From Candidatus Zemynaea palustris (GTDB lineage: Bacteria > Vulcanimicrobiota > Vulcanimicrobiia > Vulcanimicrobiales > Vulcanimicrobiaceae), in the NCBI GenBank assembly GCA_003134695.1, contig PLCB01000026.1, forward strand, positions 134,045-198,044: DNA of 64,000 bases, given 5' to 3'. Below the pieces are notes generated by a model. It worked only from the letters and a program-made list of their open reading frames with translations, was not told the DNA's origin and did no database searches. Position numbers and translations under genes: made by a program. Each line of letters opens with the position of its first letter. Within the stretch, counting starts at the first letter, position 1. Positions 45,701-60,904 of the stretch are shown here, one piece after another.

Positions 45701-45919
45701 ATGAACGTCCTCCCAGCCGACCTCAGCTCCGCGGCGCTGGGCGCCCGCGACCGCCTGGGCGGCCTCGCCCGGCGAGCAGCTTCCGCTGCGCTGCAGCCGA
45801 ATGACGGCGCCGGCTCGGCGGCCGCGATGGGCGCGGCCGCGCGCGCCGCCATCTTCGCCGACGCGCTGCTCGGCGCAATCCGTGCTCGCCTCGAGGAAGT
45901 GCGCGCGGCCACAAAATGA
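45701..45919 (+). CDS. Short FlgB-position protein (reduced rod protein?)
   Basis: A 72-residue alanine-rich helical protein that opens the flagellar-type cluster. It lies where flgB normally precedes flgC and fliE. The C-terminal helix (AAMGAAARAAIFADALLGAIRARLEEVRAA) resembles the last helix of FlgB, but the N-terminal half is much shorter than in the usual 110-140-residue protein and the rod consensus is not visible. Its stop overlaps the FlgC ATG (ATGA). The call rests mostly on position. Confidence 0.4.
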   Translation: MNVLPADLSSAALGARDRLGGLARRAASAALQPNDGAGSAAAMGAAARAAIFADALLGAIRARLEEVRAATK

Positions 45920-46320
45920 ACGGCCTTACCGAATTCGATGTTCTGAGCGCCGCCGCCGCGGGGATGGAAGCGCAGCGCGCCGCGCTCGACGTCGCGGCGC
46001 GCAACGTCGCCGCCGCCGAAGCGACCGCCCAAGGCGGCTCGTTCGAGCGCCTCGTACCGCGCTTCGCGCTTGCCCCGTCACCCAGCGCCGACGACGGCGA
46101 TATGGCACTCGAAGACGGCGCCGATGCGCTCTTCGCGAGTTTCGAAACGCCGGCGCCCGTGCGTTTCCTCGGAACCGAAGTTCAGCGCGGCGTCGACGTC
46201 GACGCGGTAACCGAGATGGTCGCCGTGTTGAACGCGCAGCGAGCCTTCGAGGCGAACGCGTCGGTCTTCGACCTCGGGAAGCGGCTCGCGGAGCGAACGA
46301 TCGAGGTCGGAAGATCGTGA
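45916..46320 (+). CDS. flgC: Flagellar-type rod protein FlgC
   Basis: A 134-residue rod protein. The N-terminal helix (FDVLSAAAAGMEAQRAALDVAARNVAAAEATA) and the C-terminal helix (DAVTEMVAVLNAQRAFEANASVFDLGKRLAERTIEVGRS) are the paired coiled-coil elements of FlgC; EMV..L.AQRAFEAN is the family signature. The middle is short. It would form part of the proximal rod on the MS ring. Start and stop both overlap neighbours, so the block is one translational unit. Confidence 0.82.
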   Translation: MNGLTEFDVLSAAAAGMEAQRAALDVAARNVAAAEATAQGGSFERLVPRFALAPSPSADDGDMALEDGADALFASFETPAPVRFLGTEVQRGVDVDAVTEMVAVLNAQRAFEANASVFDLGKRLAERTIEVGRS

Positions 46321-46598
46321 CGGTCGCACCGTTCGTCCCAGACGCCCCACTCGGAAGGATGCTCGAACCGGGCGCCCCCTCGGAAAGTTTTGGCGCAGTG
46401 TTCGAACGAGCGCTCGACGGCGCGGGCGCGGCGCTCGCGCGAGCCGAGCGCGCCGAACAGGCATTCATCGGCGGTCGCGGCGGCTTGCAAGAGATGGTCG
46501 TGGAGCGCGCGCAAGCCGACGTTCTCTTGGCGGTCGCCGGCGCGGCGGCGTCGCGCGCCGTGCAAGCTCTGAACACCATTCTCGGGATGCAGGTTTAG
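46317..46598 (+). CDS. fliE: MS-ring/rod junction protein FliE
   Basis: A 93-residue protein whose second half matches FliE: FGAVFERALDGAGAALARAERAEQAFIGG, then LQEMVVERAQADVLLAVAGAAASRAVQALNTILGMQV, with the closing helix of the family (..AyneIm.MqV). FliE links the FliF ring to the rod and is an early export substrate. The GTG start overlaps the flgC stop and fliF starts immediately after its stop. Confidence 0.85.
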   Translation: MTVAPFVPDAPLGRMLEPGAPSESFGAVFERALDGAGAALARAERAEQAFIGGRGGLQEMVVERAQADVLLAVAGAAASRAVQALNTILGMQV

Positions 46599-48053
46599 AT
46601 GCCGCGGCTGTTCGCACGCTGGCAGTCGCTTGCGCCTCGCACCCGCGTCTTGATCGTTGGCCTCGCGCTCGCGGCGTTCGCCGCGAGCGTCGTCGTCACG
46701 CTTTTGCAACGCGACGCACGCGTCGCCTTGTTCGCAGCGCCGCTGCGACCCGAACAGGTTAGCGAGGTCGTCGAGCGGCTAGCCGAATGGAACGTTCCGT
46801 TTATCGCCGTCGCCGACAACCTCAGAGTCGATGCTCGCCGCCGCAACGAGTTGCTGCTCCGGCTCTCGCTCGCGGGCGTCCCGCACGTGCATCGCACGAG
46901 TTCGAGCGAAACGCTCGCGCGCGTCAATCCGTTGACGCCGCAATCCGTGCTCGACGCTCAAGCGCGCGACGGTCTCGCCGGCGACCTCGCGACGGCGCTG
47001 CGCGGCATCGCGGGCATCGACGACGCGCAAGTGATTATCGCGCCCGGTCGCAGCGCGGCCTTCGCCGACGAATCCTCGTCGCCGCCGAGCGCGTCGGTGC
47101 GGTTGAGACTCAAACCCGGCGCCCAACTCGGCCGTCAAACCATCGACGGTATTCGGCAATTCGTTGCCGACGGCGTTTCGGGGCTGACGCCGGCGCGCGT
47201 CGCGATCCTGGACGATCGCGGGCTTGCGCTCGGCGAAACCCATAGCGCGAACGATGAGGCGTTCACGCTACAGACATCCCTTCAATCGGCGCTCGATCAA
47301 GCCTTCGGCGATGGCGCGACCATCGTTCGCGTGCGACTCGACATCGATCGGCGCAGTCGCGAACTGCGCGACGTACAACGTACGCCGCTCGCGGACAAAC
47401 CGATCGCGAGTGCCTCGCTGGACGAACGCTACGCCGCCGAGAAGAAAAAGTTTTCGCGCGTCCATACGAGCGAGGATCGGGGCAGCGATCTGCGCGAGGA
47501 GAGGACCGAAATTCCGGCAGGCGGCGTTGCGCGCATCTCGGTGGCCGTCGCCGTCGACGCCGAAAGAAAACTCGACCTCGCCGCGATCGGCTCGCTTTCG
47601 AGCGCGACGCTCGGCCTCGTCGAGGGGCGCGACGTCCTGCGCGTCGAGGCCGTTCCGTTCGCGCGCCCGTCGCGAGCCGCGTCGCCCGGCTGGGCCGTCC
47701 TCGGATTCATCGCCGCCTTGGCGCCCGCCGCGTTCTTGACGCTCGTCGCGATCTACGTCGTTCGTTTCGGTGCCGCACCGCTCGCGCGCGTGATCGAGAA
47801 GACGACGCGGCGTATCATGCTGGCGCGCACCTCGCGCGACGTCGCGGGATTTCCACCGGCTAGCGTTCGCGGCGCACTGCGCGACGAACCTCCCCATACC
47901 GCGGCCGCGATCATCAGCGCGTTGCCGGCGGCGACGGCGGCGGCCGTGCTCGATATGTATCCGGCGGAAGAGCGCGCGGCCATCGTCCGGCGGATGCAGC
48001 GCGATGCCGCGCCGATCGTTCCCGATTGCGAGACGTTGCTGCGGCATGGGTGA
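46599..48053 (+). CDS. fliF: MS-ring protein FliF fused to a FliG middle-domain-like C-terminus
   Basis: A 484-residue inner-membrane ring protein. TM1 is at about 17-36. The ring-building motifs include LAGDLATALRGIAGIDDAQVIIAPG and SASVRLRLKPGAQLGRQTIDGIRQFVADGVSGLTPARVAILDDRG. TM2 is at about 363-390. The last 60 residues (about 425-482: GALRDEPPHTAAAIIS...AAAVLDMY...RAAIVRRMQ) are not the usual FliF tail. They align with the FliG middle domain, whose EHPQ motif becomes EPPH. FliG N-terminal and torque domains are absent. The fusion would let FliF contact the FliM-like protein directly. The gene overlaps fliH by eight bases. Confidence 0.85.
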   Translation: MPRLFARWQSLAPRTRVLIVGLALAAFAASVVVTLLQRDARVALFAAPLRPEQVSEVVERLAEWNVPFIAVADNLRVDARRRNELLLRLSLAGVPHVHRTSSSETLARVNPLTPQSVLDAQARDGLAGDLATALRGIAGIDDAQVIIAPGRSAAFADESSSPPSASVRLRLKPGAQLGRQTIDGIRQFVADGVSGLTPARVAILDDRGLALGETHSANDEAFTLQTSLQSALDQAFGDGATIVRVRLDIDRRSRELRDVQRTPLADKPIASASLDERYAAEKKKFSRVHTSEDRGSDLREERTEIPAGGVARISVAVAVDAERKLDLAAIGSLSSATLGLVEGRDVLRVEAVPFARPSRAASPGWAVLGFIAALAPAAFLTLVAIYVVRFGAAPLARVIEKTTRRIMLARTSRDVAGFPPASVRGALRDEPPHTAAAIISALPAATAAAVLDMYPAEERAAIVRRMQRDAAPIVPDCETLLRHG

Positions 48054-48504
48054 GTTCGTCCCGCTCTCGGCGTCGTTGCGCCGGCGCGAAACGCCGGTGG
48101 CACCGCCGCAACCCGAGACGGCTCCGCCCACCGAAGCGGCTTTCGACGATCTCATGACCGAAGTCGCGCTCGCTCGGCTAGCTACACGCGAGGCGTACGA
48201 TCGCGCCGTCCCGCGTTTGCTGGCAGCGCTCGCGCGCGAAGTCCTCGGACGCGAACTCGCGCTCGCCCCGCCAGATCTCGCGCACCTGATCGCGCTCGGC
48301 CGCACGCGCTTCGCGGCGGAAGAGCCGGTCGCGGTGTGGCTTGCGCCCGCCGATGCTCCCCGCGTCGCCGCCGATATCCCGGTGCGCAGCGACCCGGCAT
48401 TGCAGCCGGGCGATCTGGTCCTAGAAGTGCGCGACGGTGAACTCGACGCACGCTTCGCGGTGCGCCTCGCCGGCGCGCTGGCCGGCGCCCTCGAACGCGC
48501 TTGA
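48046..48504 (+). CDS. fliH: FliH/SctL-like regulator of the export ATPase
   Basis: A 152-residue protein. A proline-rich N-terminal third (VAPPQPETAPPTEAA) is followed by a helix and a compact domain (AVPRLLAALAREVLGRELALAPPDLAHLIALGRTRF; LQPGDLVLEVRDGELDARFAVRLAGALAGALERA). The final DLVLEVRDGELDARFAVRL strand-helix pattern is the C-terminal fold of FliH/SctL/V-ATPase E. It should form a stator-like dimer that holds FliI. The position between fliF and fliI agrees. It is shorter than E. coli FliH. Confidence 0.72.
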   Translation: MGEFVPLSASLRRRETPVAPPQPETAPPTEAAFDDLMTEVALARLATREAYDRAVPRLLAALAREVLGRELALAPPDLAHLIALGRTRFAAEEPVAVWLAPADAPRVAADIPVRSDPALQPGDLVLEVRDGELDARFAVRLAGALAGALERA

Positions 48505-49742
48505 GGACGCACGGAATCGGGTCGATCGTTCGAACGATCGGCGATGTCGCGATCGCGTCGCTCCCCGCCGGACGCGTCGGTGACGGCGTGTCGATCGTTT
48601 CGCGGTCACGACGTGTGATCGGCGGGCGGATCGCGGCGGTCGAACGGGGACGCGTCGCGATCGTTCCATTCGGATCGCTGGTGGGTATCGCCGTCGGCGA
48701 CCGAGTCGAGTCGACGCCGGACGCACTTGACTGCGTGCTGGGCTTCGGGCTTCTCGGACGCGCGATCGATCCGAGCGGGCGCGCGCTCGACGGCGGAGGC
48801 ACGATTTGCGGGACGCGCGTCCGCGTCGCGCCAACCGTCTCGTCTCCGGCGCAGCGCCAATCGATCGACGCGATCGCGTGGACGGGCATACGCGCGATCG
48901 ACGGACTGCTTGCTTTCGGCCGCGGCGCCCGCATCGGCATCTTCGGCGCGCCCGGGACCGGGAAAACGTCGTTGCTCGAAATGCTGGCGGCGGGAAGATG
49001 CTTCGATGCGGTCGTCATCGGGCTCGTCGGCGAACGCGGGCGCGAAGCCGAAGCGTGGCTGCGCCGAATCGATCGGCGCTCGACCGTGATCTGCGCGACC
49101 GCCGACCGTTCCGCGGCGGAACGCGTGCGCAGCGCCGAGGTGACGATGGCGCAGGCGTGCTCTTTGCGGGAGCGCGGATTCCACGTTCTGCTGATTCTGG
49201 ACAGTCTGGCGCGCTACGCGGCGGCCTTGCGCGAACGCGCCTCGGCGCTCGGCGAACCGCCCGGGCGCGGCGGCTATCCGGCGAGCGTTTGGTCGGAATT
49301 CGGCCGTTTTCTGGAAAGCGCCGGAAATTATGCGCACGGCTCGGTGACGCTCGTTGCGACCGTCCTCGTCGACGGCGACGAGGAACGCGATCCGGTCTGC
49401 GTCAATGCGCGAGCTGCGCTCGACGGTCATCTCACCCTTTCGCCGTCCCTCGCGCGCGCCGGACGGTTTCCGGCGATCGATGTGCTCGCGAGCACGAGCC
49501 GCACGATGTGCGCCGTCGTCGACGCTCGGCATCGGGACTCCGCCGCCGCCGTTCGGGGCGGGCTGGCGCGTCTCGCAGCGACCGAGGATTTTCGTGCGGC
49601 GGGACTCAGCGACCGCGACGATCCGGAGTTCGCGCGCACGGCCGAAGTCGAGCGAGCGCTCGAAGCGTTCCTTCGGCAGGGGGACCTCGAACGGCCCGAT
49701 GCGACACGAGCCGCGCTACACGGGCTCGCCGCGCTGATGTAG
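48501..49742 (+). CDS. fliI: Flagellar-type export ATPase FliI/SctN
   Basis: A 413-residue F1-beta-like ATPase of type III export. Walker A is GAPGTGKTSLL with Lys155, followed by GLVGERGREAEAWL, Walker B in HVLLILDSLARYAAALRE, and GRGGYPASVWSEFGRFLESAG. It is shorter than typical FliI (about 440-457), mostly at the N-terminus. The TTG start overlaps the fliH stop. It closes the first block; the next gene is an unrelated protease. Confidence 0.93.
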   Translation: MRTHGIGSIVRTIGDVAIASLPAGRVGDGVSIVSRSRRVIGGRIAAVERGRVAIVPFGSLVGIAVGDRVESTPDALDCVLGFGLLGRAIDPSGRALDGGGTICGTRVRVAPTVSSPAQRQSIDAIAWTGIRAIDGLLAFGRGARIGIFGAPGTGKTSLLEMLAAGRCFDAVVIGLVGERGREAEAWLRRIDRRSTVICATADRSAAERVRSAEVTMAQACSLRERGFHVLLILDSLARYAAALRERASALGEPPGRGGYPASVWSEFGRFLESAGNYAHGSVTLVATVLVDGDEERDPVCVNARAALDGHLTLSPSLARAGRFPAIDVLASTSRTMCAVVDARHRDSAAAVRGGLARLAATEDFRAAGLSDRDDPEFARTAEVERALEAFLRQGDLERPDATRAALHGLAALM

Positions 49743-49755
49743 AATCGCGGTGGTG

Positions 49756-51318
49756 ATGCACGTTCTGCGAGCGGCCTTCAACGCGGCGATCGTCGTCGGC
49801 TTGCTCGCCGTCCCGTGCGCGGGGTTGCCGGCGGCCGGGCCGGCGGTCACGCAGTTACTGGCCGGGTATCTTCGCGCGGTCGAAGACCCCGGGGTTGCGC
49901 CCTTCGATCGTTTCGAAGCTCGCGGTTCGGTCGCGGGCGGCGGATTGACCGGCGCCTTTCATACCTGGGAGGACCGCGACCGCGCGCGGGAAGACGAGAA
50001 CCTCGGGCCGCGCCGGGAGACGACGCTGCGGCTCGGCGACCGCGTCTTCTATGCAAACGCCGACGGTAACGTGCGCGAGTTCACCGGCATAATGTTGCGC
50101 CGCGACCGAACCGAGCGTTTCATCGACACGGGAGATTTTGCGAAGGCTCCTGAGCGCTGCGTTGCGCGCGGTCGCGTCGCGATCGACGGACGCAACGCTT
50201 ATGCGCTGGACGTCACCGCTCCGAGCGGAGAGATGCAGACGCTGTACCTCGACGCTCAGACGTACTTGCCGGCCCGCATCGCGTATGACGACGACGACGG
50301 CCGCACGACGATCGATTTCTCCGACTGGCGGACGATCGGCGGGCATCGCTTTCCGTTTCATCTGCTTATTTCCGACGGCGATCGCGAATTCGACGTGACG
50401 CAGACGACCGAAAGCCTCCGCATCGGCGAGCCGATCGACCAGGGGGTTTTCCAACCTCTGGTCGGCCGTTCGATCGAGATGCGGGCGCCGCAAACCATTC
50501 GGCTAACGGCCCGCGACGGCCATCTGTTCGTTCCGGTGACGATCGCGGGGCGGCAGTACAATTTCCTCATCGACTCGGGCGCTCAAAACATCCTCATTGA
50601 CAAACACGTCTCGCACGATCTCGGCCTCGCACCGGTCGGCGCGCTGGAAGCGAGCGGCGCGCAACGCGTCGGCGGATTGCAGATCGCGCATCTGGATGCG
50701 CTCAGCGTCGGCGACGGAACGCTGCACGACCTGGTCGTGACGACGCTCGACCTCGGCCGCTCGACGAGCGGCGCCTTTCCCATCGACGGGATCCTGGGCT
50801 ATCCGTTTTTCGCGGAAGCGACCGTGACGCTCGATGTGGCGCACTCGACGATGACGTTCGGCCCGCCGGGCTCGTTCGTGCCGCCGGGGACGAAGGTCGC
50901 GCTCGAAACCGACCGCGCGTTCCCCGAGGCGCGCTTCCGCATCAACGACGCGCTCGAGGTGCCGTTCCTGGTCGACACCGGCAACGCCGGCGAGATTCTT
51001 CTTTATAAGCCGTTCGTCGATCGTCATCCAAGCATCGTTCCGCCCAGCGTCACCGCGACGCGGCGCGCCTACGGCATCGGCGGGGCGACGTCCTCGTACT
51101 CGAGTTCGCTCGATCGGATCGACCTCGCCGACTTCACCATCTACCACGCCCAAGCCGAGGTGATGCTGGCCACTCGCGGCGCGTTCGCCGACCGCTTCGA
51201 CGCAGGCAACGTCGGGCTCGGCGTTCTTCGGAATTTCGTCGTCACGTTCGACGAGAGCGCGAATGCGCTCTACCTCGAGCGCGGCAGCGATTTCATCGAC
51301 GGCCGCTTGCGGGTGTAA
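49756..51318 (+). CDS. Exported two-lobed retropepsin-like aspartyl protease
   Basis: About 520 residues with a signal peptide (AAFNAAIVVGLLAVPCAGLPAAG). Residues about 25-235 form an LolA/outer-membrane lipoprotein-like beta region (RETTLRLGDRVFYANADGN, AYALDVTAPSGEMQTLYLDAQTYLPARIAYDD). Two aspartyl protease half-domains follow: the first with LIDSGAQNILID (Asp273) and the second with LVDTGNAGEILL (Asp407). Two active-site triads in one chain suggest an internal pseudo-dimer. It lies between two flagellar-type blocks on the same strand and could process an exported protein. ATG at 49756 is preferred over GTG at 49750. Confidence 0.82.
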   Translation: MHVLRAAFNAAIVVGLLAVPCAGLPAAGPAVTQLLAGYLRAVEDPGVAPFDRFEARGSVAGGGLTGAFHTWEDRDRAREDENLGPRRETTLRLGDRVFYANADGNVREFTGIMLRRDRTERFIDTGDFAKAPERCVARGRVAIDGRNAYALDVTAPSGEMQTLYLDAQTYLPARIAYDDDDGRTTIDFSDWRTIGGHRFPFHLLISDGDREFDVTQTTESLRIGEPIDQGVFQPLVGRSIEMRAPQTIRLTARDGHLFVPVTIAGRQYNFLIDSGAQNILIDKHVSHDLGLAPVGALEASGAQRVGGLQIAHLDALSVGDGTLHDLVVTTLDLGRSTSGAFPIDGILGYPFFAEATVTLDVAHSTMTFGPPGSFVPPGTKVALETDRAFPEARFRINDALEVPFLVDTGNAGEILLYKPFVDRHPSIVPPSVTATRRAYGIGGATSSYSSSLDRIDLADFTIYHAQAEVMLATRGAFADRFDAGNVGLGVLRNFVVTFDESANALYLERGSDFIDGRLRV

Positions 51319-51409: not shown

Positions 51410-51961
51410 ATGAACTCGATCGCCGTGATCCGCGCGCGCCTACCCTACGTCGACCGTCGCGCCCTTTCGGAAGCCTGGTTTTCCGCGTTGCACTTGGCTT
51501 GCGGACCGATTACAAACGCTCGGCGCTCTCAAGGGCAAATATCCCAAAATTCCTTCCCTTCTCGCGTCGAAATTCTCGCGAGTGGCCGCTTGATGGCCGT
51601 GCGAGGCGGCGCGACGTTGCCGACGCGGGCGCCTGCGCCGAGCGCAGGCCGGAGGCCGGAGCGACAAAGCAGTTTCGAGGCGGCACGAGTTCCACGGATG
51701 GAACGAGTCCGCCGTCCCGGCGGAGGCAATGTTCGCGCCGCCGAAGCATGGCGGTCTCAAGAGACGCGCGCAAATTTCGGCATCGATCTCCCCGGCGGCG
51801 GCCGCGTACAGATTCTGCTGCGGCGCGATGGACGAACGTTGCTCGTCCTCGCCCTGTGCAGCACACGGCACGTCGAATTCGTGCGGCGTGCGCTGGCTGG
51901 CGCCGATCTGCACTTGCGGTTGCGCGGCGAAAGAGTTTCTTCGTCGGTGCGTGCGCTGTGA
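51410..51961 (+). CDS. Unknown protein at FliK position; C-terminus weakly FliK-like
   Basis: A 183-residue protein opening the second block. The first 120 residues are basic and low in order. The last 60 (FGIDLPGGGRVQILLRRDGRTLLVLALCSTRHVEFVRRALAGADLHLRLRGERVSS) follow the strand-strand-helix-strand pattern of the FliK/SctP C-terminal substrate-specificity switch domain. That domain normally reads ruler length and acts on FlhB, which is encoded at 57.8 kb. The similarity is weak and no other motif helps. The ATG follows GAGGGAACC. The stop overlaps the FlgG-like start. Confidence 0.4.
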   Translation: MNSIAVIRARLPYVDRRALSEAWFSALHLACGPITNARRSQGQISQNSFPSRVEILASGRLMAVRGGATLPTRAPAPSAGRRPERQSSFEAARVPRMERVRRPGGGNVRAAEAWRSQETRANFGIDLPGGGRVQILLRRDGRTLLVLALCSTRHVEFVRRALAGADLHLRLRGERVSSSVRAL

Positions 51962-52674
51962 TCTCGCAAATCGCCGATGCCGTCGCGCGCGTCGAAGCGC
52001 GCGCGCAGGAGGTCCAACATCTCTTTGAGGGCGGTTTCGAACCGGACGACGCGCGTTCGGTGCGACGCGCGACGACAACGTTACCATCGCTCGATCCGCT
52101 CAGCGTCGCCGCGCCGGACGGGGCGTACTTCGTCGCTCTCGACGAACGCGGCCGTTCGATCTTCACGCGCGACGGCGTTTTCTCGTTCGCCGACGGAACG
52201 CTCCGCGGCCGCGACGGCTTGCCCGTCCTCGGTTTCCGCGACGACGCGGGGAAGCCCGCACCGCTGCGGGCCGATCCGCTCGACGTCGCGCTCGGCCGTG
52301 TCGCGGGCGCGCGTCTCGAACGCGACGGCTCGCTGACCTACGAACGCAGCCTCGTCGATCCGCGCAGCGGCGAGCGGCGTGTCGAACGCGTCGTCGTCGG
52401 CCGCGTCGCGCTCGGGCGTTTTTCGGCGGGAACGCAGCCGCTGCGTCGCGATCCGACGCACGTCGTCGCTCCTTCGGGAGTCCAACCGATGCTGGGGCGC
52501 GCCGGCGACAATGCGTTCGGATCGCTGACGACGTTCGCGCGCGACCTTGGCCGGCTGGATCCGCTCGCCGGCCTTGACCGGTTGGAAGAAGCCTATCTGT
52601 CGTTCGAGGCGATTCGCGCCGCCGGCGCAGCGCATGGCGGTCTCGAGCGGACCGCCCTGGATCTCGTCAAGTGA
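51958..52674 (+). CDS. FlgF/FlgG-type rod protein
   Basis: A 238-residue distal-rod-like protein. The central beta region is diagnostic: DGAYFVALDERGRSIFTRDGVFSFADGTLRGRDGLPVLGF corresponds to the FlgG/FlgF block (F.v....g..yTRdG.F..d..G.lv...G.pVlG). The terminal helices are short (ISQIADAVARVEARAQEVQHLF; DRLEEAYLSFEAIRAAGAAHGGLERTALDLVK), and the usual N-terminal rod motif is lost. Whether it is FlgF or FlgG cannot be decided. The GTG start overlaps the preceding stop and the next gene's GTG overlaps its stop. Confidence 0.75.
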   Translation: MISQIADAVARVEARAQEVQHLFEGGFEPDDARSVRRATTTLPSLDPLSVAAPDGAYFVALDERGRSIFTRDGVFSFADGTLRGRDGLPVLGFRDDAGKPAPLRADPLDVALGRVAGARLERDGSLTYERSLVDPRSGERRVERVVVGRVALGRFSAGTQPLRRDPTHVVAPSGVQPMLGRAGDNAFGSLTTFARDLGRLDPLAGLDRLEEAYLSFEAIRAAGAAHGGLERTALDLVK

Positions 52675-53450
52675 TCGCCGATCTCGCGTTCCTCGATCCG
52701 CGGCTCGGGCGGCACGGGCGCGCCGTGCGTGAGATTCGCTTCGCGCGCCGCTCCGGGTTGCCGCTGTCGGCAGCCTGCCTGGTCGCGAACGGCGTGCGCG
52801 AACATTTCGGTCGTTTGCTCGGACGCGCGCTCGAAACCGAAGTGATCGCTCCGGTTGTCCCCGACGCGCATTTTTTTCGCGTGCTCTTCGAGGAGGCGAT
52901 CGTTCGGCGCGTTCGCGGCCGGCTTTGCGAAGCGTTCATCGCGATCCGGCCGGACGATGCGCGGCGATTGATTGCGGTTGCTTTCGTCGAACCCGAACGC
53001 GGCCCAAGCGCGCTCTCGCAGGTCGAGCGTCTCACCCTCGATCGGCTGTTCGCGGTGCTGCCGCCGCTGTGCGTGCCGCTCTGTGGCGACGTCCGTGGAG
53101 TCTCGGCGGAGACCCCCGAGCGCGCCGCCGCCGAAGCCAGGACCTACTTCGAGGTGCGCATCGCGAGCGGCGTCGACGCCGCACTCGGCTTCGCGTTGAC
53201 CGTCGATCCCTCGCAAGAATCCGTGCCGGCGCTCGCGCTCGAGGATCTGCAGGATCTCGAACTCGAGTGCGCGGTCGAATGTGCCCGGGGGACGCTCGGC
53301 GTCGACGCCGTCGCTCGCCTTCACGAAGGGATGACGCTTCCGTTCGAGACGCTGCTCGAGGATGCCGGAACGCTTCGAGTCGGAGGGGCTCCGATCGCTC
53401 GCGGCACGTGCGGGGTACGCGGCGGACGTGCTGCGTTCGTCGTGCGATGA
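52671..53450 (+). CDS. FliM/SctQ-like C-ring protein with SpoA domain
   Basis: A 259-residue soluble protein. The C-terminal 63 residues (LELECAVECARGTLGVDAVARLHEGMTLPFETLLEDAGTLRVGGAPIARGTCGVRGGRAAFVV) are a SpoA (FliM/FliN-C) domain. The N-terminal 190 residues have a CheC/FliM-like alpha-beta pattern. The short N-terminal peptide that binds CheY-P in true FliM is missing. This fits SctQ or a FliM that needs no chemotaxis input. It would bind the FliG-like tail of FliF. fliN follows with a 4-base overlap. Confidence 0.72.
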   Translation: MIADLAFLDPRLGRHGRAVREIRFARRSGLPLSAACLVANGVREHFGRLLGRALETEVIAPVVPDAHFFRVLFEEAIVRRVRGRLCEAFIAIRPDDARRLIAVAFVEPERGPSALSQVERLTLDRLFAVLPPLCVPLCGDVRGVSAETPERAAAEARTYFEVRIASGVDAALGFALTVDPSQESVPALALEDLQDLELECAVECARGTLGVDAVARLHEGMTLPFETLLEDAGTLRVGGAPIARGTCGVRGGRAAFVVR

Positions 53451-53704
53451 ACGACGAACGGCGGCTCGACGTCCTGATGAACGTTGCGCTCGGCGTGAGC
53501 GCCGAATTGGGGCGCTGCTCGCTGCGGCTCGGCGAACTGCTCAAACTCGGGAGCGGCGCCGTCGTCGAACTCGACCGCCGCGCCGGTGCGCCGATCGATC
53601 TGTTCGTCAACGGAAAGCTGATCGCGCGCGGCGAGATCGTCGCCGTCGACGATCGCTACGGCGTACGCCTCACCGAAGTGCTGACGGCTAAGCGGGCGCG
53701 CTGA
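53447..53704 (+). CDS. fliN: FliN-type C-ring protein
   Basis: An 85-residue SpoA-domain protein: RRLDVLMNVALGVSAELGRCSLRLGELLKLGSGAVVELDRRAGAPIDLFVNGKLIARGEIVAVDDRYGVRLTEVL is the complete FliN C-terminal domain, with the family's L.V...LG......G.V.EL....P.d..VNG..iA.GEvVvv...fgvRit. Only a short N-terminal tail precedes it. FliN forms the base of the C-ring and binds FliH. Its stop shares a base with the fliP start, leaving no room for fliO. Confidence 0.92.
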   Translation: MNDERRLDVLMNVALGVSAELGRCSLRLGELLKLGSGAVVELDRRAGAPIDLFVNGKLIARGEIVAVDDRYGVRLTEVLTAKRAR

Positions 53705-54360
53705 TGGACGCGCTGCTCGGCGCGAGTCACGGCGTGCGTTCGAGCCTGCCGCTCGACGTGCTAGCCGGTCTGACGCTGCTCGGCGCCGTCCCCTTTCTGC
53801 TGGTCATGACGACGTCGTTCGTGCGGATCGTCGTCGTCCTGTCGCTCGTGCGCTCGGCGATCGGCGCGCCGTCTTTGCCGCCGAACGCGGCGCTGACCGG
53901 ATTGGCGCTGGTCCTCACCTTCGTGGTGATGTGGCCGACGGCCGAGCGGATCTCGCACGAGGCGCTCGAGCCGTACGCGCGTGGACGATTGACGCAATCC
54001 CAACTCGTCGAGCGCGCCTTCGTGCCGTTGCGTGCGTTCATGGTACGCCAAGCGCACGCCAAAGATATGGCGCTCTTCGAACGCCTTGCGCACGTGAAGC
54101 ATCGGCCTGCGGCCGGCGAGCCGCCGGCGGTGATTCTTCCGGCGTTCGTCGTCGGAGAATTGCGTAGCGCCTTTGCGGCCGGCTTCGCCCTCTACCTACC
54201 GTTTGTCGCGATCGATTTGGCGGTCGCGTCGATCTTGATGGGCCTCGGGATGTTCATGCTGAGTCCCCCCATCGTCTCGCTCCCCTGCAAACTGCTGCTG
54301 TTCGTCATGGTCGACGGCTGGGCGCTGATCTGCGGCGGCCTCATTTCGAGTTTTCGCTAG
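53704..54360 (+). CDS. fliP: Export gate protein FliP/SctR
   Basis: A 218-residue membrane protein of the export gate. Family blocks: LLGAVPFLLVMTTSFVRIVVVLSLVRSAIGAPSLPPNAALTGLALVLTFVVMWPT and, at the C-terminus, VVGELRSAFAAGFALYLPFVAIDLAVASILMGLGMFMLSPPIVSLPCKLLLFVMVDGW. It lacks the cleavable signal peptide of E. coli FliP (about 245 residues) and is nearer to SctR in length. It assembles with FliQ and FliR, whose genes are 2.5 kb downstream beyond two unrelated genes. Confidence 0.95.
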   Translation: MDALLGASHGVRSSLPLDVLAGLTLLGAVPFLLVMTTSFVRIVVVLSLVRSAIGAPSLPPNAALTGLALVLTFVVMWPTAERISHEALEPYARGRLTQSQLVERAFVPLRAFMVRQAHAKDMALFERLAHVKHRPAAGEPPAVILPAFVVGELRSAFAAGFALYLPFVAIDLAVASILMGLGMFMLSPPIVSLPCKLLLFVMVDGWALICGGLISSFR

Positions 54361-54568: not shown

Positions 54569-55903
54569 GTGGCTTGCATACTCATCATCGCGAGCATCCC
54601 GGTTGCACGAATACAAGCCCCCGAGATCGACGCGTTTCTTCCGGCCGTGTGCGGCGTCGCCGTCTTTGCCGAGTTGCTGACGGCGTTCTTGTTGTGGAAC
54701 CAGTACCGCGCGTCGGGCGACGCGCCGATCGCCGTCCTCGCGCTCGCGTACGCAGGCTCGGCGCTTCTGGGAATCGAGTACGTCCTCACCTTTCCGCACG
54801 CGTTCGCCGAGCATTTCCTCGGCGCCGGGCCTCAAACGACGGCGTGGCTGTATCTGATCGGGCAGGTCTTCTTCGCGAGCTACATTATTCTGTTCGCGCT
54901 CTGGGAGCCGCTGTGCCGCCGCGTCTCCACCTTCGCAAGCGGCAACGGCGTACCGATGCTGGCGGCGATCACGATCCTGATTCCGCTGGTCGCTCTGCTC
55001 GTGACCGTCGGTTATTCCGACGACCTGCCGGCCGCGCTTGGGGGAACGCACACGACGCCGCTGTGGCAGGGAAGGATCGTCCCGTTGCTGCTCGCCTACC
55101 AGGTCGCGGCATGCGTGATCCTCGTCGTGGTGACGCGCCTGCGAACCGTGGTCCATCTGTGGCTGGCAGTAGTTGTCGTGGTTTCGCTCAGCGAAGCTCT
55201 GCTTTCGAACGTCATCTCGGGCGCGCGCTTCACGCTCGGCTGGTATCTCGGACGGGCGGAATGGCTCGTCGTCGCGAGCTTGTTCTTGATCGTGCTGCTC
55301 GGGAGCGTCTATCGGATCTTGCTCACGCTCAGCTCGACCAACGCCGCGCTCTACCGGCAGTCGGTCTCCGACGACCTGACCGGCTTACTGAATCGTCGCG
55401 GCTTCAACGCCCGGCTCGAGGAAGAGTTACGGCGCGCTCAGCGGCGTAACGAGGCGGTCGCGTTGCTGGTCATCGACATCGACGACTTCAAGCGCTATAA
55501 CGACTCGTACGGACATCCGGCCGGCGACACCGCGCTTGGAATCGTCTCGCGCGTCATCAAGACCACGTTGCGGCGCGCGGCCGATTGCGGCGCGCGCATC
55601 GGCGGCGAAGAGTTCGCGGTACTCCTACCGGAAACCGGCGACTCAGGGGCAGCGGCCGTCGCCGAACGGATTCGTCGCGGCGTCGAGCGCGTCGGTATCT
55701 TGCAAGGCGTCGGCGCGCGGCACGGCGTCTTGACGGTGAGCATCGGACTCGCCTCGACCGAGGAACGTCCGGCTCAAGATGGGCTCGACCTGATGCGCCG
55801 CAGCGATCGTGCACTCTACCAAGCCAAGAGCGAAGGCCGCAACTGCATCCGCGTGCAGGGGGCCCCGAGGATACACGTCGGCGAATCATCGCTGACAGGT
55901 TGA
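54569..55903 (+). CDS. Membrane diguanylate cyclase (GGDEF)
   Basis: Makes cyclic di-GMP from two GTP. The N-terminal 250 residues hold about seven membrane segments. The GGDEF domain (from about 275: SVSDDLTGLLNRRGFNARLEEELRRAQR, VIDIDDFKRYNDSYGHPAGD) has the active site GGEEF. The inhibitory site RxxD lies five residues before it (RAADCGARIGGEEF). GTG at 54569 cuts off the start of the first membrane segment (LALWVAGVACILII). The frame is open to 54482, with a CTG at 54494 after AGGAAG that may be the true start. The 54361-54493 gap contains no recognised riboswitch. Confidence 0.9.
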   Translation: MACILIIASIPVARIQAPEIDAFLPAVCGVAVFAELLTAFLLWNQYRASGDAPIAVLALAYAGSALLGIEYVLTFPHAFAEHFLGAGPQTTAWLYLIGQVFFASYIILFALWEPLCRRVSTFASGNGVPMLAAITILIPLVALLVTVGYSDDLPAALGGTHTTPLWQGRIVPLLLAYQVAACVILVVVTRLRTVVHLWLAVVVVVSLSEALLSNVISGARFTLGWYLGRAEWLVVASLFLIVLLGSVYRILLTLSSTNAALYRQSVSDDLTGLLNRRGFNARLEEELRRAQRRNEAVALLVIDIDDFKRYNDSYGHPAGDTALGIVSRVIKTTLRRAADCGARIGGEEFAVLLPETGDSGAAAVAERIRRGVERVGILQGVGARHGVLTVSIGLASTEERPAQDGLDLMRRSDRALYQAKSEGRNCIRVQGAPRIHVGESSLTG

Positions 55904-56787
55904 GGATAGATCAGACCCTGGCGCTCGGGCGCCCATGTTTCTCGTTCGAGTTCTTTCCGCCGAAAACCGACGAGGGCGTCGAGAACCTGGTGGCGACGGC
56001 CCGGACGCTTCGCACGCTCGAGCCGGCGTTCGTTTCGGTGACCTATGGCGCCGGCGGATCGACCCGCGCGCGAACGATCGAGGTTGCGAAGCGGATGAAG
56101 CGCGAGCTCGACCTCGAGGTGATGGCGCACGTCACCTGCGTCGGGCATACGCGCGCCGAACTCCGCGCACTCTTCAGCGAGATCGAGGAGGCCGGCATCG
56201 AGAACGTGTTGGCGTTGCGCGGCGATCCACCGCGCGGAGAAACCACGTTCACGGCGACCGAAGGCGGCTTTCGCTACGCCTCGGAGCTGATCGCGATGTT
56301 GCAGGAAGAGTTCGCCTTCTCTCTCGGTGCCGCAGCCTATCCGGAAACGCATCCGGAGGCGGTGAGTTTTGACGAAGACTTGGCGAATGCGATCCGCAAA
56401 GTTCGCGCCGGCGCGCGCTTCTTGATCACGCAGCTGTTCTTCGACAACGAAAAGTACTTCCGGTTCGTCGAGCGCGCGCGACAGCTCGGGGTCGACGTCC
56501 CGATCATCCCGGGAATCATGCCGATCACCAATTACGAGCAAATCGCGCGCATGACCAAGATGTGCGGAGCGACGATTCCGCGACCGCTGCTCGAAGAACT
56601 CGAAGCTCGCGCCGCCGATCCGCAGGCTATCACCGACCTCGGCGTCGCCTACAGCGCGCTGCAATGCTCCGAACTCTTGCAACGCGGCGCGCCGGGCGTC
56701 CATTTCTACACGCTGAACCGCTCGCCGTCGACGCGGGCGGTCGTCTCGGCGCTGCTCGCCGCTCGCTCCACGGTCTCGGCGACTTAG
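55900..56787 (+). CDS. metF: 5,10-methylenetetrahydrofolate reductase
   Basis: Reduces methylene-THF to methyl-THF for methionine synthesis. The 295-residue FAD protein begins with FSFEFFPPKTDEGVENL, then FVSVTYGAGGSTRARTIEVAKRM, VMAHVTCVGHTRAEL, NVLALRGDPPRGE and FLITQLFFDNEKYFRFVERA, all family hallmarks. The TTG start overlaps the stop of the cyclase gene (TTGA). It has no evident link to the surrounding secretion genes. Confidence 0.95.
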   Translation: MRIDQTLALGRPCFSFEFFPPKTDEGVENLVATARTLRTLEPAFVSVTYGAGGSTRARTIEVAKRMKRELDLEVMAHVTCVGHTRAELRALFSEIEEAGIENVLALRGDPPRGETTFTATEGGFRYASELIAMLQEEFAFSLGAAAYPETHPEAVSFDEDLANAIRKVRAGARFLITQLFFDNEKYFRFVERARQLGVDVPIIPGIMPITNYEQIARMTKMCGATIPRPLLEELEARAADPQAITDLGVAYSALQCSELLQRGAPGVHFYTLNRSPSTRAVVSALLAARSTVSAT

Positions 56788-56860: not shown

Positions 56861-57133
56861 ATGGACGCGCTCGGTGCGATTCTGCGTGAGGCCCTTGTCG
56901 TGGCGGCGCTCGCGACATTTCCTGTCCTTGGGATCGCCACGGCGGTCGGCGTCGTCGTCGCCGTCGTTCAAGCGGCGACCCAAGTGCAAGAACAGACGCT
57001 GACCTTGCTGCCGAAACTGTTGGCGGTGGGCGCGACGCTCGTCGTGTTCGGCGGCGTCGCGCTCGGCGCATGCGCCGGGCTCTTCGAGCACGCGATCGCG
57101 GCGCTGCCCCAGATCGTTCGGGGCGTGCCCTGA
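56861..57133 (+). CDS. fliQ: Export gate protein FliQ/SctS
   Basis: A 90-residue protein with two membrane helices. It shows LREALVVAALATFPVLGIATAVGVVVAVVQAATQVQEQTLTLLPKLLAVGATLVVFGG; the loop QAATQVQEQTLTLLPK is the FliQ signature and lines the secretion pore. Length is normal. Its stop lies 11 bases before the fliR ATG. Confidence 0.95.
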   Translation: MDALGAILREALVVAALATFPVLGIATAVGVVVAVVQAATQVQEQTLTLLPKLLAVGATLVVFGGVALGACAGLFEHAIAALPQIVRGVP

Positions 57134-57144
57134 GCGAAATCCAG

Positions 57145-57846
57145 ATGTTGGTCCTCGCCCGCTGCCTCGGCTTCGTCTTTCGCGCACCGGGATTCTCGCA
57201 TCCGGACGTTCCGCCGGCGGCACGCGCCGCGTTCGCATACGTCCTCTCGATCGCACTCGCATCGCGCCAAAACGCCGCGCATCTCGCCCCGGGCGGGCTC
57301 GCGTTCGCGGTCGCGAGCGAAGTCGCCCTCGGCGCCGCGATCGGCACCGCCGCCTCGCTGTTGTACGACGGCGCGTACGCGGGCGGGCGTGCGCTGGACG
57401 ATTACGCCGGGATTCGTGGTAGCGTGCCGAGCGCGAACGTTGGCGCCGGTGCGGGTTTCGGGCGCCTGTGGTCGCTCGCGTTCGTCACCGGTTTCTTCGT
57501 TCTCGGCGGCGATCGCTTCGCACTCACGTCGTTCGCGGGAGGTTTTGCGGCGCTGCCGCCCGGCGCGCTCGTCGAAGCGCGCGATCTCGCGACGTTCGCG
57601 ATCACGCTGCCCTCGACGCTCTTGCGCGCGGCGCTATTCGTCGCCGGGCCCGCGATCGTGCTCGGGCTCGTCGTCCAAATCGCGCTCGCCACGATCTCGC
57701 GCGTCGTTCCGCGGCTCTCGACCTTCCCGCTTTCGTTCGGCCTCGTCTTGGCGGCGACGATCCTGCTGACGCTGGCTTCGCTGCCGGTCATCATCCCCGC
57801 GGCGGCGACGCCCTGGTTCGACGTTTCGGCGTTGCACTCGCGCTGA
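57145..57846 (+). CDS. fliR: Export gate protein FliR/SctT
   Basis: A 233-residue membrane protein with about six hydrophobic segments. It has LVLARCLGFVFRAPGFSHPDVPPAARAAFAYVLSIAL at the front and, at the end, AGPAIVLGLVVQIALATISRVVPRLSTFPLSFGLVLAATILLTLASLPVI, the FliR C-terminal block. A CTG overlapping the fliQ stop (57130) is a possible alternative start; the ATG at 57145 is preferred. The stop shares a base with the flhB ATG. Confidence 0.92.
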   Translation: MLVLARCLGFVFRAPGFSHPDVPPAARAAFAYVLSIALASRQNAAHLAPGGLAFAVASEVALGAAIGTAASLLYDGAYAGGRALDDYAGIRGSVPSANVGAGAGFGRLWSLAFVTGFFVLGGDRFALTSFAGGFAALPPGALVEARDLATFAITLPSTLLRAALFVAGPAIVLGLVVQIALATISRVVPRLSTFPLSFGLVLAATILLTLASLPVIIPAAATPWFDVSALHSR

Positions 57847-58859
57847 TGGACGACGCGCACGACAAACCGTTCGAAGCGACGCCGAGCCGGCTCGAGCGCG
57901 CGCGACGCGAGGGCGACCTGCCGCGTTCCGCCGATGCGGCCGCGTTGGCGGCGTTTGCCGGCGCGTCGCTCGCGCTCGTCGCGATTGGCGCGCCGTGTGC
58001 CGAAGCGGCGCGGGCGGCACTCGCCGACGCGACTCGCGGTACGCTTGTCGGCGGACCGTACGCCGTCATGGCGACGTGCGCCGTTATGCCTGCGATCGGC
58101 GCGATCGCTGTTGCCGTCGCCGCGAATCTGATGGTCGGCGGACAGCTCGCGGTGCGCCCGCTGGCGCTCGATCTTGCGCGATTGAATCCGCTGGGCGGAC
58201 TGCGGACGATGTTGTCGCGCGATGCCGCGCTCAATGCCGCGAAGGCGCTCTTGGCCGGGCTCGCGCTCGGGACGGCGTCGTGGCCGGCGCTGGCGGCGAC
58301 CTTCGCCGGCGCCGCTCGCGGCGGCGGCTCCGATGCGCTGACCCTCATCGCGGGTCAGGCGCTGGTACGTATCGTGCTCGCCGCACTGGCCGTGGCGACG
58401 CTGTTCGCAGCGATCGACGTCGTCTCCGGACGATCGAAATGGCGCCGCAAGCAGCGTATGAACTATGACGATTTGAAGCGCGATCTCAAACAGGATGAAG
58501 GCGATCCCCTGGTTCGCGGTCGTCGGCGCAAGGCGCACGGCGCGCTCGTGCGCGGTTCGCTCGAACGAATCCGCGACGCCGCGTTCGTCGTCGCCAACCC
58601 GACGCACGTCGCCGTCGCGCTCGCCTACCGCCCGCCGGAGATCGCGGTTCCGCTCGTCTTGATCCGCGCCGTCGACGACGGCGCGCTCCTCGTCAAGGAG
58701 CGCGCGCGTGCTCTCGAGATTCCGATCGTCGAAGACATCGCGCTCGCTCGAACACTATTCGCCCGGACCCAAGTCGACGCGTTCATCCCGCGCGAGACTT
58801 ACGACGCAGTCGCGCGCATCGTCGCGGCGCTGCTGCATCAACGCAAAGGGCTCTCGTGA
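57846..58859 (+). CDS. flhB: Export switch protein FlhB/SctU
   Basis: A 337-residue protein with four membrane helices and a cytoplasmic self-cleaving domain. The N-terminus DDAHDKPFEATPSRLERARREGDLPRSADA is typical. The cleavage motif NPTH is at residues 251-254 in FVVANPTHVAVALAY. The C-terminus has PLVLIRAVDDGALLVKERARALEIPIVEDIALARTLF. Intact autocleavage suggests that substrate switching still takes place. It is coupled to fliR and flhA. Confidence 0.95.
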   Translation: MDDAHDKPFEATPSRLERARREGDLPRSADAAALAAFAGASLALVAIGAPCAEAARAALADATRGTLVGGPYAVMATCAVMPAIGAIAVAVAANLMVGGQLAVRPLALDLARLNPLGGLRTMLSRDAALNAAKALLAGLALGTASWPALAATFAGAARGGGSDALTLIAGQALVRIVLAALAVATLFAAIDVVSGRSKWRRKQRMNYDDLKRDLKQDEGDPLVRGRRRKAHGALVRGSLERIRDAAFVVANPTHVAVALAYRPPEIAVPLVLIRAVDDGALLVKERARALEIPIVEDIALARTLFARTQVDAFIPRETYDAVARIVAALLHQRKGLS

Positions 58860-60904
58860 GTCGCAACGCTGCGACCTATGGTTTCGCCGGCGCGGTCCTC
58901 GGGCTCGTCGGTATCTTGCTCGTGCCGTTGCCGCCGCCGCTGCTCGATGCGCTGCTCGCCTTCGACATCTTGGGTTCGGCGGTGGTGCTGCTCGTCAGCA
59001 TCACGGTCGCCGATCCACTCGAGTTCTCCGCGTTCGCGCCGACGCTGCTAATCGCGACGCTCTTCCGTCTCGCGCTCGACGTCTCGGCGACGCGCCTGAT
59101 CCTCACACAAGGTCACCTCGAGGGCGGCGTCGGGGCGATCGTCCCCGCGTTCGGGCAGTTCGTGATTCGGGGCAACCTCGTCGTCGGTCTGATCATTTTT
59201 GCGATCCTCGTCATCATCCAATTCCTCGTGATCGCCGCGGGTTCGCAGCGCGTCGCCGAAGTCGCGGCGCGCTTCACGCTGGACGCGATGCCTGGGAAGC
59301 AGATGGCCATCGACGCCGACGTCCACGCCGGCACGCTCGACGCCGAGGGTGCGCGTCGCAAGCGCGCGCTCGTGCAAAAGGAAGCCGATTTCTTCGGGGC
59401 GATGGACGGCGCGGGAAAATTCGTCAAAGGCGACGCCGTCGCCGCGCTCGCGATCGTCGTCTTGAATTTGATGGGCGGCGTCGTGGTCGGCGTCGCCTAC
59501 CACGGGTTCTCGCCGCTCGACGCGCTCAATACGTTCGCGATCCTCTCGATCGGCAACGCGCTCGTGACGACGCTACCCGCCTTCCTCCTCTCGACCGCGA
59601 TGGGGCTCATCGTGACGCGTGTCGCCGCCGATGGCTCGCTCGGCTTCGATCTCGCGACGCAGATCCTCGAGCGGCCGGCGGTGCTGCGCGCTGCGGGTTG
59701 CTTCGCGCTCGCGCTGGCGCTCGTGCCCGCACTTCCGCGCGCGCTGTTTGCGACGCTCGGCCTCGGCGCGCTGGCCGTCGCCGCGCTCGCGGAGGGGCGC
59801 CGCCGTCGCCGCTCGGAAGAAGAGAAGGCCGCGCGCGAGATGGCGCGCCGCGTCGCGATCCGCCGGCCCGAAACCGCACTGGGGCTCGTCGGCGTCGACG
59901 CGCTTTCCATCGACGTCGGACTCGATCTCGGCGCGCTTCTCGTCCCGCCGCTCGCCGACGCGTTCCTGGACCGCATCGGTGAAGTTCGGCGCGGTCTCGC
60001 GGTCGAGATCGGAATCGTCATGCCGGGTGTTCGTCTGCGCGACGATCTCGCGCGCGATCCGCAAACCTACGCGATTCGTGTCCGCGATGCGGTCGCGGCC
60101 GAAGGCCGCTTGCAACTTGACAAATTGCTCGCCGTCGCCGACGACCGCGTCCTCGTATCGATGGAGGGCGAAGCGACGCGCGAGCCGGTCTACGGCCTGC
60201 CGGCGCGCTGGATCGCGCCGGAATTCCGCGATGCGGCGCAAAGCGCGGGCGCGCTCGTCTTCGACCCGATCGCGATCGTCGGTTCGCACCTCGCCGAAAC
60301 CGTGCGCGCGCATGCGGCCTCGTTGCTCGGACGCCAAGAGTTGCACACCTTGCTCGAGCACTTGCGCGTTGGTGTTCCGTCGCTGGTCAAAGAACTCGGC
60401 GGCGACGGCGTCTCGCTTGCGCTGGTGCAGCGGACCTTGGAATGTCTGTTACGCGAGCGCATCTGGCCGCGCGACGTCGTCGCGACGCTGGAGACGATCG
60501 TCGAAACCGCCAGCGTCACGCGCGATCCGCGTGAGTTGGCCGAAGCCGTGCGCCGCCGCATCGTTCCGGGTCAGCTCCGCCGGCGCAAACTCGAGGCGCT
60601 CGAACCGCTGTTGATCGCGCCGGATTTCGAAGCGGATCTGCGCGCATGGTTCGCCGATGGTGCCGCCGCTCCGCATCCTGAGGTTGCCGTCCACGTGCGC
60701 ACGGTCGCGGCCGGATACGTCGCTCGCGTCGCCCGCGAACGTGCGGCGCTGCTCTGCGCCGCGAATTTGCGCGTCCCGCTCGCCGAGTTCTTCGGGCGCC
60801 TCGGCGTGCGTCTCGACGTCTTCGCGTACGCCGAGCTGCCGCCCGAGCTCGAGATCCGTCCCGCGATGATCCTCGAGCGCCCGCGGGAAGCTTTGGTTAG
60901 TTAG
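58856..60904 (+). CDS. flhA: Export gate protein FlhA/SctV
   Basis: A 682-residue protein: eight membrane helices in the first 310 residues, then the cytoplasmic ring domain. The FHIPEP signature region is clear: RLALDVSATRLILTQ, RFTLDAMPGKQMAIDADVHAGTLDAEGARRKRALVQKEADFFGAMDGAGKFVKGDAVAAL. The C-terminal domain contains SLLGRQELHTLLEHLRVGVPSLVKELGGDGVSLALVQRTLECLLRERIWPRD. The GTG start overlaps flhB. Its end overlaps the converging fur gene by eight bases. Confidence 0.95.
   Translation: MSRNAATYGFAGAVLGLVGILLVPLPPPLLDALLAFDILGSAVVLLVSITVADPLEFSAFAPTLLIATLFRLALDVSATRLILTQGHLEGGVGAIVPAFGQFVIRGNLVVGLIIFAILVIIQFLVIAAGSQRVAEVAARFTLDAMPGKQMAIDADVHAGTLDAEGARRKRALVQKEADFFGAMDGAGKFVKGDAVAALAIVVLNLMGGVVVGVAYHGFSPLDALNTFAILSIGNALVTTLPAFLLSTAMGLIVTRVAADGSLGFDLATQILERPAVLRAAGCFALALALVPALPRALFATLGLGALAVAALAEGRRRRRSEEEKAAREMARRVAIRRPETALGLVGVDALSIDVGLDLGALLVPPLADAFLDRIGEVRRGLAVEIGIVMPGVRLRDDLARDPQTYAIRVRDAVAAEGRLQLDKLLAVADDRVLVSMEGEATREPVYGLPARWIAPEFRDAAQSAGALVFDPIAIVGSHLAETVRAHAASLLGRQELHTLLEHLRVGVPSLVKELGGDGVSLALVQRTLECLLRERIWPRDVVATLETIVETASVTRDPRELAEAVRRRIVPGQLRRRKLEALEPLLIAPDFEADLRAWFADGAAAPHPEVAVHVRTVAAGYVARVARERAALLCAANLRVPLAEFFGRLGVRLDVFAYAELPPELEIRPAMILERPREALVS

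Follow-up and report, generated by a model that had tools for sequence, protein, structure and literature searches.

The DNA stretch analysed here (64,000 nucleotides from Candidatus Zemynaea palustris, hereafter the window) encodes a FliF protein that carries the middle domain of FliG (FliG_M) as its C-terminal tail. The fused FliF probably builds the MS ring of a type III exporter that descends from a flagellum, does not rotate and has FliM docked on the ring itself, a reading to which we assign a probability of roughly 0.7. In this membrane-ring protein, carried by a group of soil bacteria, FliG_M has been gained and the torque part lost, and the system therefore looks like a flagellar base that turned into a non-rotating exporter. 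We infer the lack of rotation, the ring stoichiometry and secretion as the function.

FliF is fused to the middle domain of FliG

The fused gene encodes a protein of 484 amino acids. Pfam recognises a YscJ_FliF domain (residues 42-211, E = 4.2e-24), a YscJ_FliF_C domain (residues 297-354, E = 1.1e-5) and FliG_M (residues 421-466, E = 1.5e-9, 38.4 bits versus a cut-off of 25), the last of which covers only positions 2-47 of the 76 in the profile. The FliG_M match lies at 47859-47996 of the window, and the rest of 47799-48053 encodes a linker past the second membrane helix and the final 18 residues. A profile of the tail only, built from 12 relatives, retrieved FliG chains as all nine of its best matches in a PDB sequence search (E = 0.001-0.07), and the best of these spans tail positions 3-70. 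Alignment of the tail with the FliG proteins of relatives in hhalign covered 70 columns (E = 3.6e-5, probability 71%). FliG_M was also found independently in the FliF of each of the 18 relatives that were aligned. MgtE_N was considered as the identity of the tail and rejected; it scored below its cut-off (E = 0.0084), was weaker than FliG_M and was absent among the PDB matches.

The AlphaFold model of FliF places four helices in the tail (residues 420-427, 432-440, 444-452 and 456-466) with a pLDDT of about 73-85. The model of the whole protein, with a low pTM of 0.28, matches the FliF MS ring (PDB: 9a67, 8t8p). FliF thus combines both YscJ_FliF-type domains with the predicted fold of an MS ring, and it matches the NCBIfam equivalog TIGR00206 below the cut-off (64.5 versus 129.75 bits). 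The C-terminal segment that binds FliG_N was not found in the fused FliF; FliG_M stands in its place. The tail carries the motif EPPH where canonical FliG_M has EHPQ. An assembly artefact or an accident of a single genome was discarded as an explanation, as the same fused open reading frame occurs in dozens of independent assemblies. At the level of sequence and predicted structure, our analyses confirm that FliF is fused to the FliG middle domain, a resemblance already noted in a preliminary description of the locus.

Table 1 Features of the fusion operon in the window
Feature	Position	Strand	Evidence
Probable minimal FlgB rod protein, 72 aa	45701..45919	+	Position and C-terminal helix resemblance; no Pfam match
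FlgC rod protein	45916..46320	+	TIGR01395 1.5e-14, Flg_bbr_C
FliE	46317..46598	+	Pfam FliE 1.2e-7
FliF-FliG_M fusion	46599..48053	+	Pfam YscJ_FliF, YscJ_FliF_C, FliG_M; AlphaFold model resembles FliF MS ring
FliG_M-like tail, residues 417-484	47847..48050	+	Pfam match 421-466, tail profile, hhalign, predicted helices
FliH	48046..48504	+	Pfam FliH 2e-8
FliI/SctN export ATPase	48501..49742	+	Profile matches
Aspartyl protease-like protein	49750..51318	+	Pfam Asp_protease_2 7.9e-20; in operon of most relatives
FliK-like ORF by position only, 183 aa	51410..51961	+	No Pfam match above cut-off
FlgF/FlgG-like distal rod protein	51958..52674	+	Weak LlgE_F_G_D1 0.0038, TIGR02490 4e-4; conserved
FliM, CheC-like middle domain and SpoA domain	52671..53450	+	Pfam FliMN_C 2.1e-10; AlphaFold model resembles flagellar FliM, E 5.7e-12
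FliN	53447..53704	+	Pfam FliMN_C 7.2e-24
FliP	53704..54360	+	Pfam FliP 1e-68
FliQ	56861..57133	+	Pfam Bac_export_3 2.7e-20
FliR	57130..57846	+	Pfam Bac_export_1 6.2e-28
FlhB	57840..58859	+	Pfam Bac_export_2 1.1e-58
FlhA	58856..60904	+	Pfam FHIPEP 1.2e-191; sole genome copy; tree

The operon encodes an export apparatus in a genome that lacks motility parts

The genes around the fused fliF encode rod, C-ring and export gate proteins (Table 1). The usual order is FlgB-like, FlgC, FliE, FliF-FliG_M, FliH, FliI, a lytic transglycosylase and an aspartyl protease (not in all), followed by FliK-like, FlgF/G, FliM, FliN, FliP, metF, FliQ, FliR, FlhB and FlhA. This order is kept in 20 neighbourhoods of relatives across the family, whose FliF proteins are 44-80% identical. 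The 72-aa FlgB-like frame is kept in relatives, and the 183-aa frame has homologues at the same place in their operons; a related system (the sister system, see below), which belongs to other classes of this phylum, encodes proteins with recognisable Flg_bb_rod (FlgB) and Flg_hook domains at these two positions. The lytic transglycosylase gene of the relatives was not found in the window.

The protease-like protein is retropepsin-like and has a weak LolA-like match at its N-terminus. A metF gene encoding methylenetetrahydrofolate reductase (55900-56787) sits between fliP and fliQ, as in most relatives, and in the window it is adjoined by a gene for a GGDEF protein. In several loci, the operon lies a short way downstream of a pair of ribosomal protein genes, which read as rplM and rpsI.

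The window's genome comprises 2.70 Mb and is 96.7% complete. FliG_N, FliG_C, MotB, flagellin and the P-ring protein FlgI were not found in it, using searches (for FliG_N, FliG_C, the MotB plug, flagellin and FlgI) that were positive in flagellated control genomes. The flagellin, MotB stator, FliG_C and P ring by which a bacterial flagellum is recognised are thus all missing from this genome. The preliminary description had proposed that the torque domain is gone, which the FliG_C search bears out. As counterevidence it had named the lack of a significant FliG_M match, which the tail does have, and a complete fliG elsewhere in the genome; FliG_M is confined to the fused FliF, which leaves M as the only one of the three FliG domains present. 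FlhA occurs once in the genome, within the fusion operon. Four secretins are encoded on other contigs, one of them next to genes resembling those of a type II system or type IV pilus. They were rejected as part of the system, being unlinked to the operon. No substrate, dedicated outer-membrane channel or needle tip was identified within the locus.

The retention of the C-ring proteins FliM and FliN could point to a basal body that still rotates, with a stator missed by homology searches or a torque site outside FliG_C. We regard this as very improbable, because the MotB plug domain and FliG_C are absent from the genome, there is no flagellin for a filament, and the torque residues are already replaced in the sister system.

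The tail is under strong constraint

Estimated dN/dS values are about 0.09-0.15 for the tail, 0.10-0.28 for the periplasmic part and 0.38-0.80 for the membrane helix and linker. The tail is therefore under strong constraint, equal to or stronger than that on the periplasmic part and far stronger than that on the linker. Its mean column identity is 70%, and the EPPH motif is nearly invariant. Both the low dN/dS and this identity argue against decay. A decaying flagellar remnant without function would account for the missing filament, stator and torque domain in the window's genome, and for the transglycosylase gene missing from the window. It is nonetheless quite improbable: dozens of genera encode the complete export apparatus in a fixed gene order with low dN/dS, and the system is duplicated in two genomes (G022 and G038).

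Distribution among relatives

Two families of the order (f1 and f2) together comprise 95 genomes, and a search with the tail profile detected the fusion in 81 of these. Among relatives that have this gene, most of the named records bear the name Candidatus Eremiobacterota. The system is also present, as two clusters, in a third family of their class (f3), where the tail diverges more (ELPQ, EMPQ or ES-P). The preliminary description had called for a search of relatives for the same architecture and for any separate fliG. The architecture is indeed shared; a separate fliG does occur in about half of the relatives, but as part of a second, true flagellum. FliG_C, MotB and flagellin are all encoded in 38 of the 81, where they belong to this separate flagellum, which has a fliG and an FlhA to itself.

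These 38 genomes leave room for the idea that the fused FliF serves the true flagellum with which it shares the cell, as one of its parts or as an alternative ring. This idea is scarcely credible and largely refuted by the 34 fusion genomes without FliG_C, MotB and flagellin. Moreover, the fusion system has its own FlhA, FlhB, FliPQR, FliI, FliM and FliN, and its FlhA falls in a different clade.

One relative genome that bears the operon fits Vulcanimicrobium alpinum WC8-2, going by our own assignment of its identity, so the fusion lineage probably includes a cultured member. Flagella were not seen in this organism and a flagellin gene was not found (PMC9758169). The presence of the system in a genome fitting a cultured, unflagellated bacterium makes its function testable.

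Some genomes carry additional copies. G038 and G022 encode three and two fused FliF proteins, respectively (L141, L142, L143, L043), in partial or complete operons. Two contigs filed as Rhodospirillales (L054, L059) also carry the system and are probably mislabelled Eremiobacterota. Nine genomes of 5-8 Mb from the same phylum (G116, G122, G123, G128, G131, G134, G137, G139 and G140) have seven to nine FlhA-family matches each, possibly representing many parallel type III export systems.

FliM as the predicted partner of the tail

The preliminary description had pointed to the FliM-like protein of the operon as the partner of the tail, and its predicted structure agrees with this proposal. The AlphaFold model has a FliM fold in which the CheC-like middle domain is kept. 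Flagellar FliM proteins are the structures that match it best, among them the FliM chains of FliM-FliG_M co-crystals (4fhr, 3soh, 4qrm and 4fq0).

Both sides of the predicted interface, the FliG_M motif and the FliM loop, change in the same lineages. In f1 and f2, the EPPH tail is paired with a FliM loop reduced to FGE. The sister system pairs an EHPQ or ELPQ FliG with a full Pfam FliM. The third family appears as an intermediate form, combining an E[ML]PQ or ES-P tail with a FliM loop that resembles GGPG.

The tail is most economically read as a docking site for FliM, which would tie the FliM-FliN ring, together with FliH-FliI, to the MS ring. Each FliF subunit would bear its own cytoplasmic FliG_M domain, to which the FliM middle domain could bind directly. 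The FliM-FliN ring would then hang on the MS ring without a FliG_N adaptor and without a FliG_C torque ring, and could hold FliH and the FliI ATPase beneath the FlhA/FlhB/FliPQR gate. This gate may export a short rod (FlgB-like, FlgC, FliE and FlgF/G) and further substrates.

Alternatively, a tail of FliG_M origin may now bind another partner, such as FliH or FlhA, with FliM no longer docked. The changes from EHPQ to EPPH and, in FliM, from GGPG to FGE in f1 and f2 leave neither side with its canonical contact residues intact. We nevertheless consider another partner unlikely, given that FliM retains the fold of its FliG-binding domain though no other part of FliG remains to bind, and that the two sides changed in the same lineage with an intermediate in the third family.

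The fusion system has a sister system with altered torque residues

In a phylogenetic tree of FlhA, which represents a single protein with long branches and leaves out Myxococcales sequences, the proteins of all three families group as a single clade (100/100), with a second flagellar-type system from other classes in the phylum as its sister. The phylum's true flagella fall in a separate FlhA clade, and the four injectisome SctV references are placed outside (100/100). Derivation of the fusion system from the phylum's own true flagellum was rejected for FlhA (p-AU 6e-76). A tree of the FliG_M domain (70 columns) groups the fused tails together (92/94), with branches so long that the source FliG is indistinguishable.

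In the sister system (loci L182-L190), fliG is still a gene of its own and directly follows fliF in most loci, and the tail of FliF ends in a segment resembling the one that binds FliG_N. Pfam recognises Flg_bb_rod, Flg_hook, FliJ and full FliM in these operons, and flagellin had no match in several of the genomes that carry them. In all 12 distinct full-length FliG sequences of the sister system, residues corresponding to R281 and R297 of E. coli FliG, positions established as important for torque, are replaced by E/D and P/S/D, respectively. FliG proteins of the phylum's true flagella keep K, R, E, E/D and R at the torque positions.

We infer a stepwise conversion as the simplest evolutionary series. 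The fusion system would have arisen in place from the phylum's second flagellar-type system, with the torque residues of FliG the first to be replaced. FliG_N and FliG_C may then have been lost, with FliG_M joined to FliF. Genome G129 encodes a 284-aa FliG paralogue (L181:10866-11720, minus strand) with FliG_N and the first part of FliG_M (EDPP), located between fliF and a full fliG. This paralogue has no torque domain and represents another route to a torque-less FliG.

Comparison with known systems

The FliF-FliG_M architecture has a precedent, since a fusion was already described in Chlamydiaceae, bacteria without flagella, where the cytoplasmic tail of FliF is homologous to FliG_M and was suggested to bind a C-ring protein (Bergeron 2016, PMC4768692). 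This was the only natural FliF-FliG fusion found in the open-access literature, which also yielded no description of a type III system in Eremiobacterota. Both fusions join FliG_M to the C-terminus of FliF. The chlamydial protein has about 330 aa, lacks the third ring-building domain and is encoded with few flagellar genes beside an injectisome (PMC4768692), whereas the 484-aa FliF described here has YscJ_FliF_C and is not shortened in its periplasmic region. Its operon is also complete, supplying a dedicated FliM, FliN, rod and gate, and the fusion is widely conserved by vertical descent. What appears to be new is that the operon is intact, that it is so widespread and that intermediates exist.

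Artificial FliF-FliG fusions in Salmonella and Vibrio show that single-chain rings can assemble, and those made in Salmonella still assemble and rotate flagella (PMC4768692, PMC11481574). Unlike these constructs, the natural fusion is without FliG_N and FliG_C. An attachment of the C ring through only a ring protein and FliM would be minimal and offers itself for structural work. FliE, FlgC, FliF, FliM, FliN, FliH, FliI, FliPQR and FlhAB are homologous to those of the flagellar basal body, but FliG_C, MotB, flagellin and the P-ring protein are all missing from the window's genome.

The intermediate NF-T3SS of Myxococcales, described as an early NF-T3SS, is similar in kind: a type III system that stems from the flagellum and lacks motility parts. 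The part of the source drawn on here portrays it as conserved and vertically inherited, and proposes that it translocated proteins at a stage preceding the recruitment of secretins (Abby and Rocha 2012, PMC3459982). That same part mentions no FliF-FliG fusion.

The system also differs from injectisomes in that no dedicated secretin was found and its FlhA is not in the SctV clade. This distance from SctV makes it look like a separate conversion. The route from rotary motor to protein injector has been argued mainly from distant end points; here torque residue loss, torque domain loss and adaptor-to-ring fusion seem to be preserved as steps within one phylum. We somewhat favor an independent conversion in which a flagellum became a static type III exporter without a secretin and whose intermediates still live in a single phylum: FliG with full torque residues in the true flagella, a full-length FliG with these residues replaced in the sister system, and the FliF-FliG_M of class Eremiobacteria.
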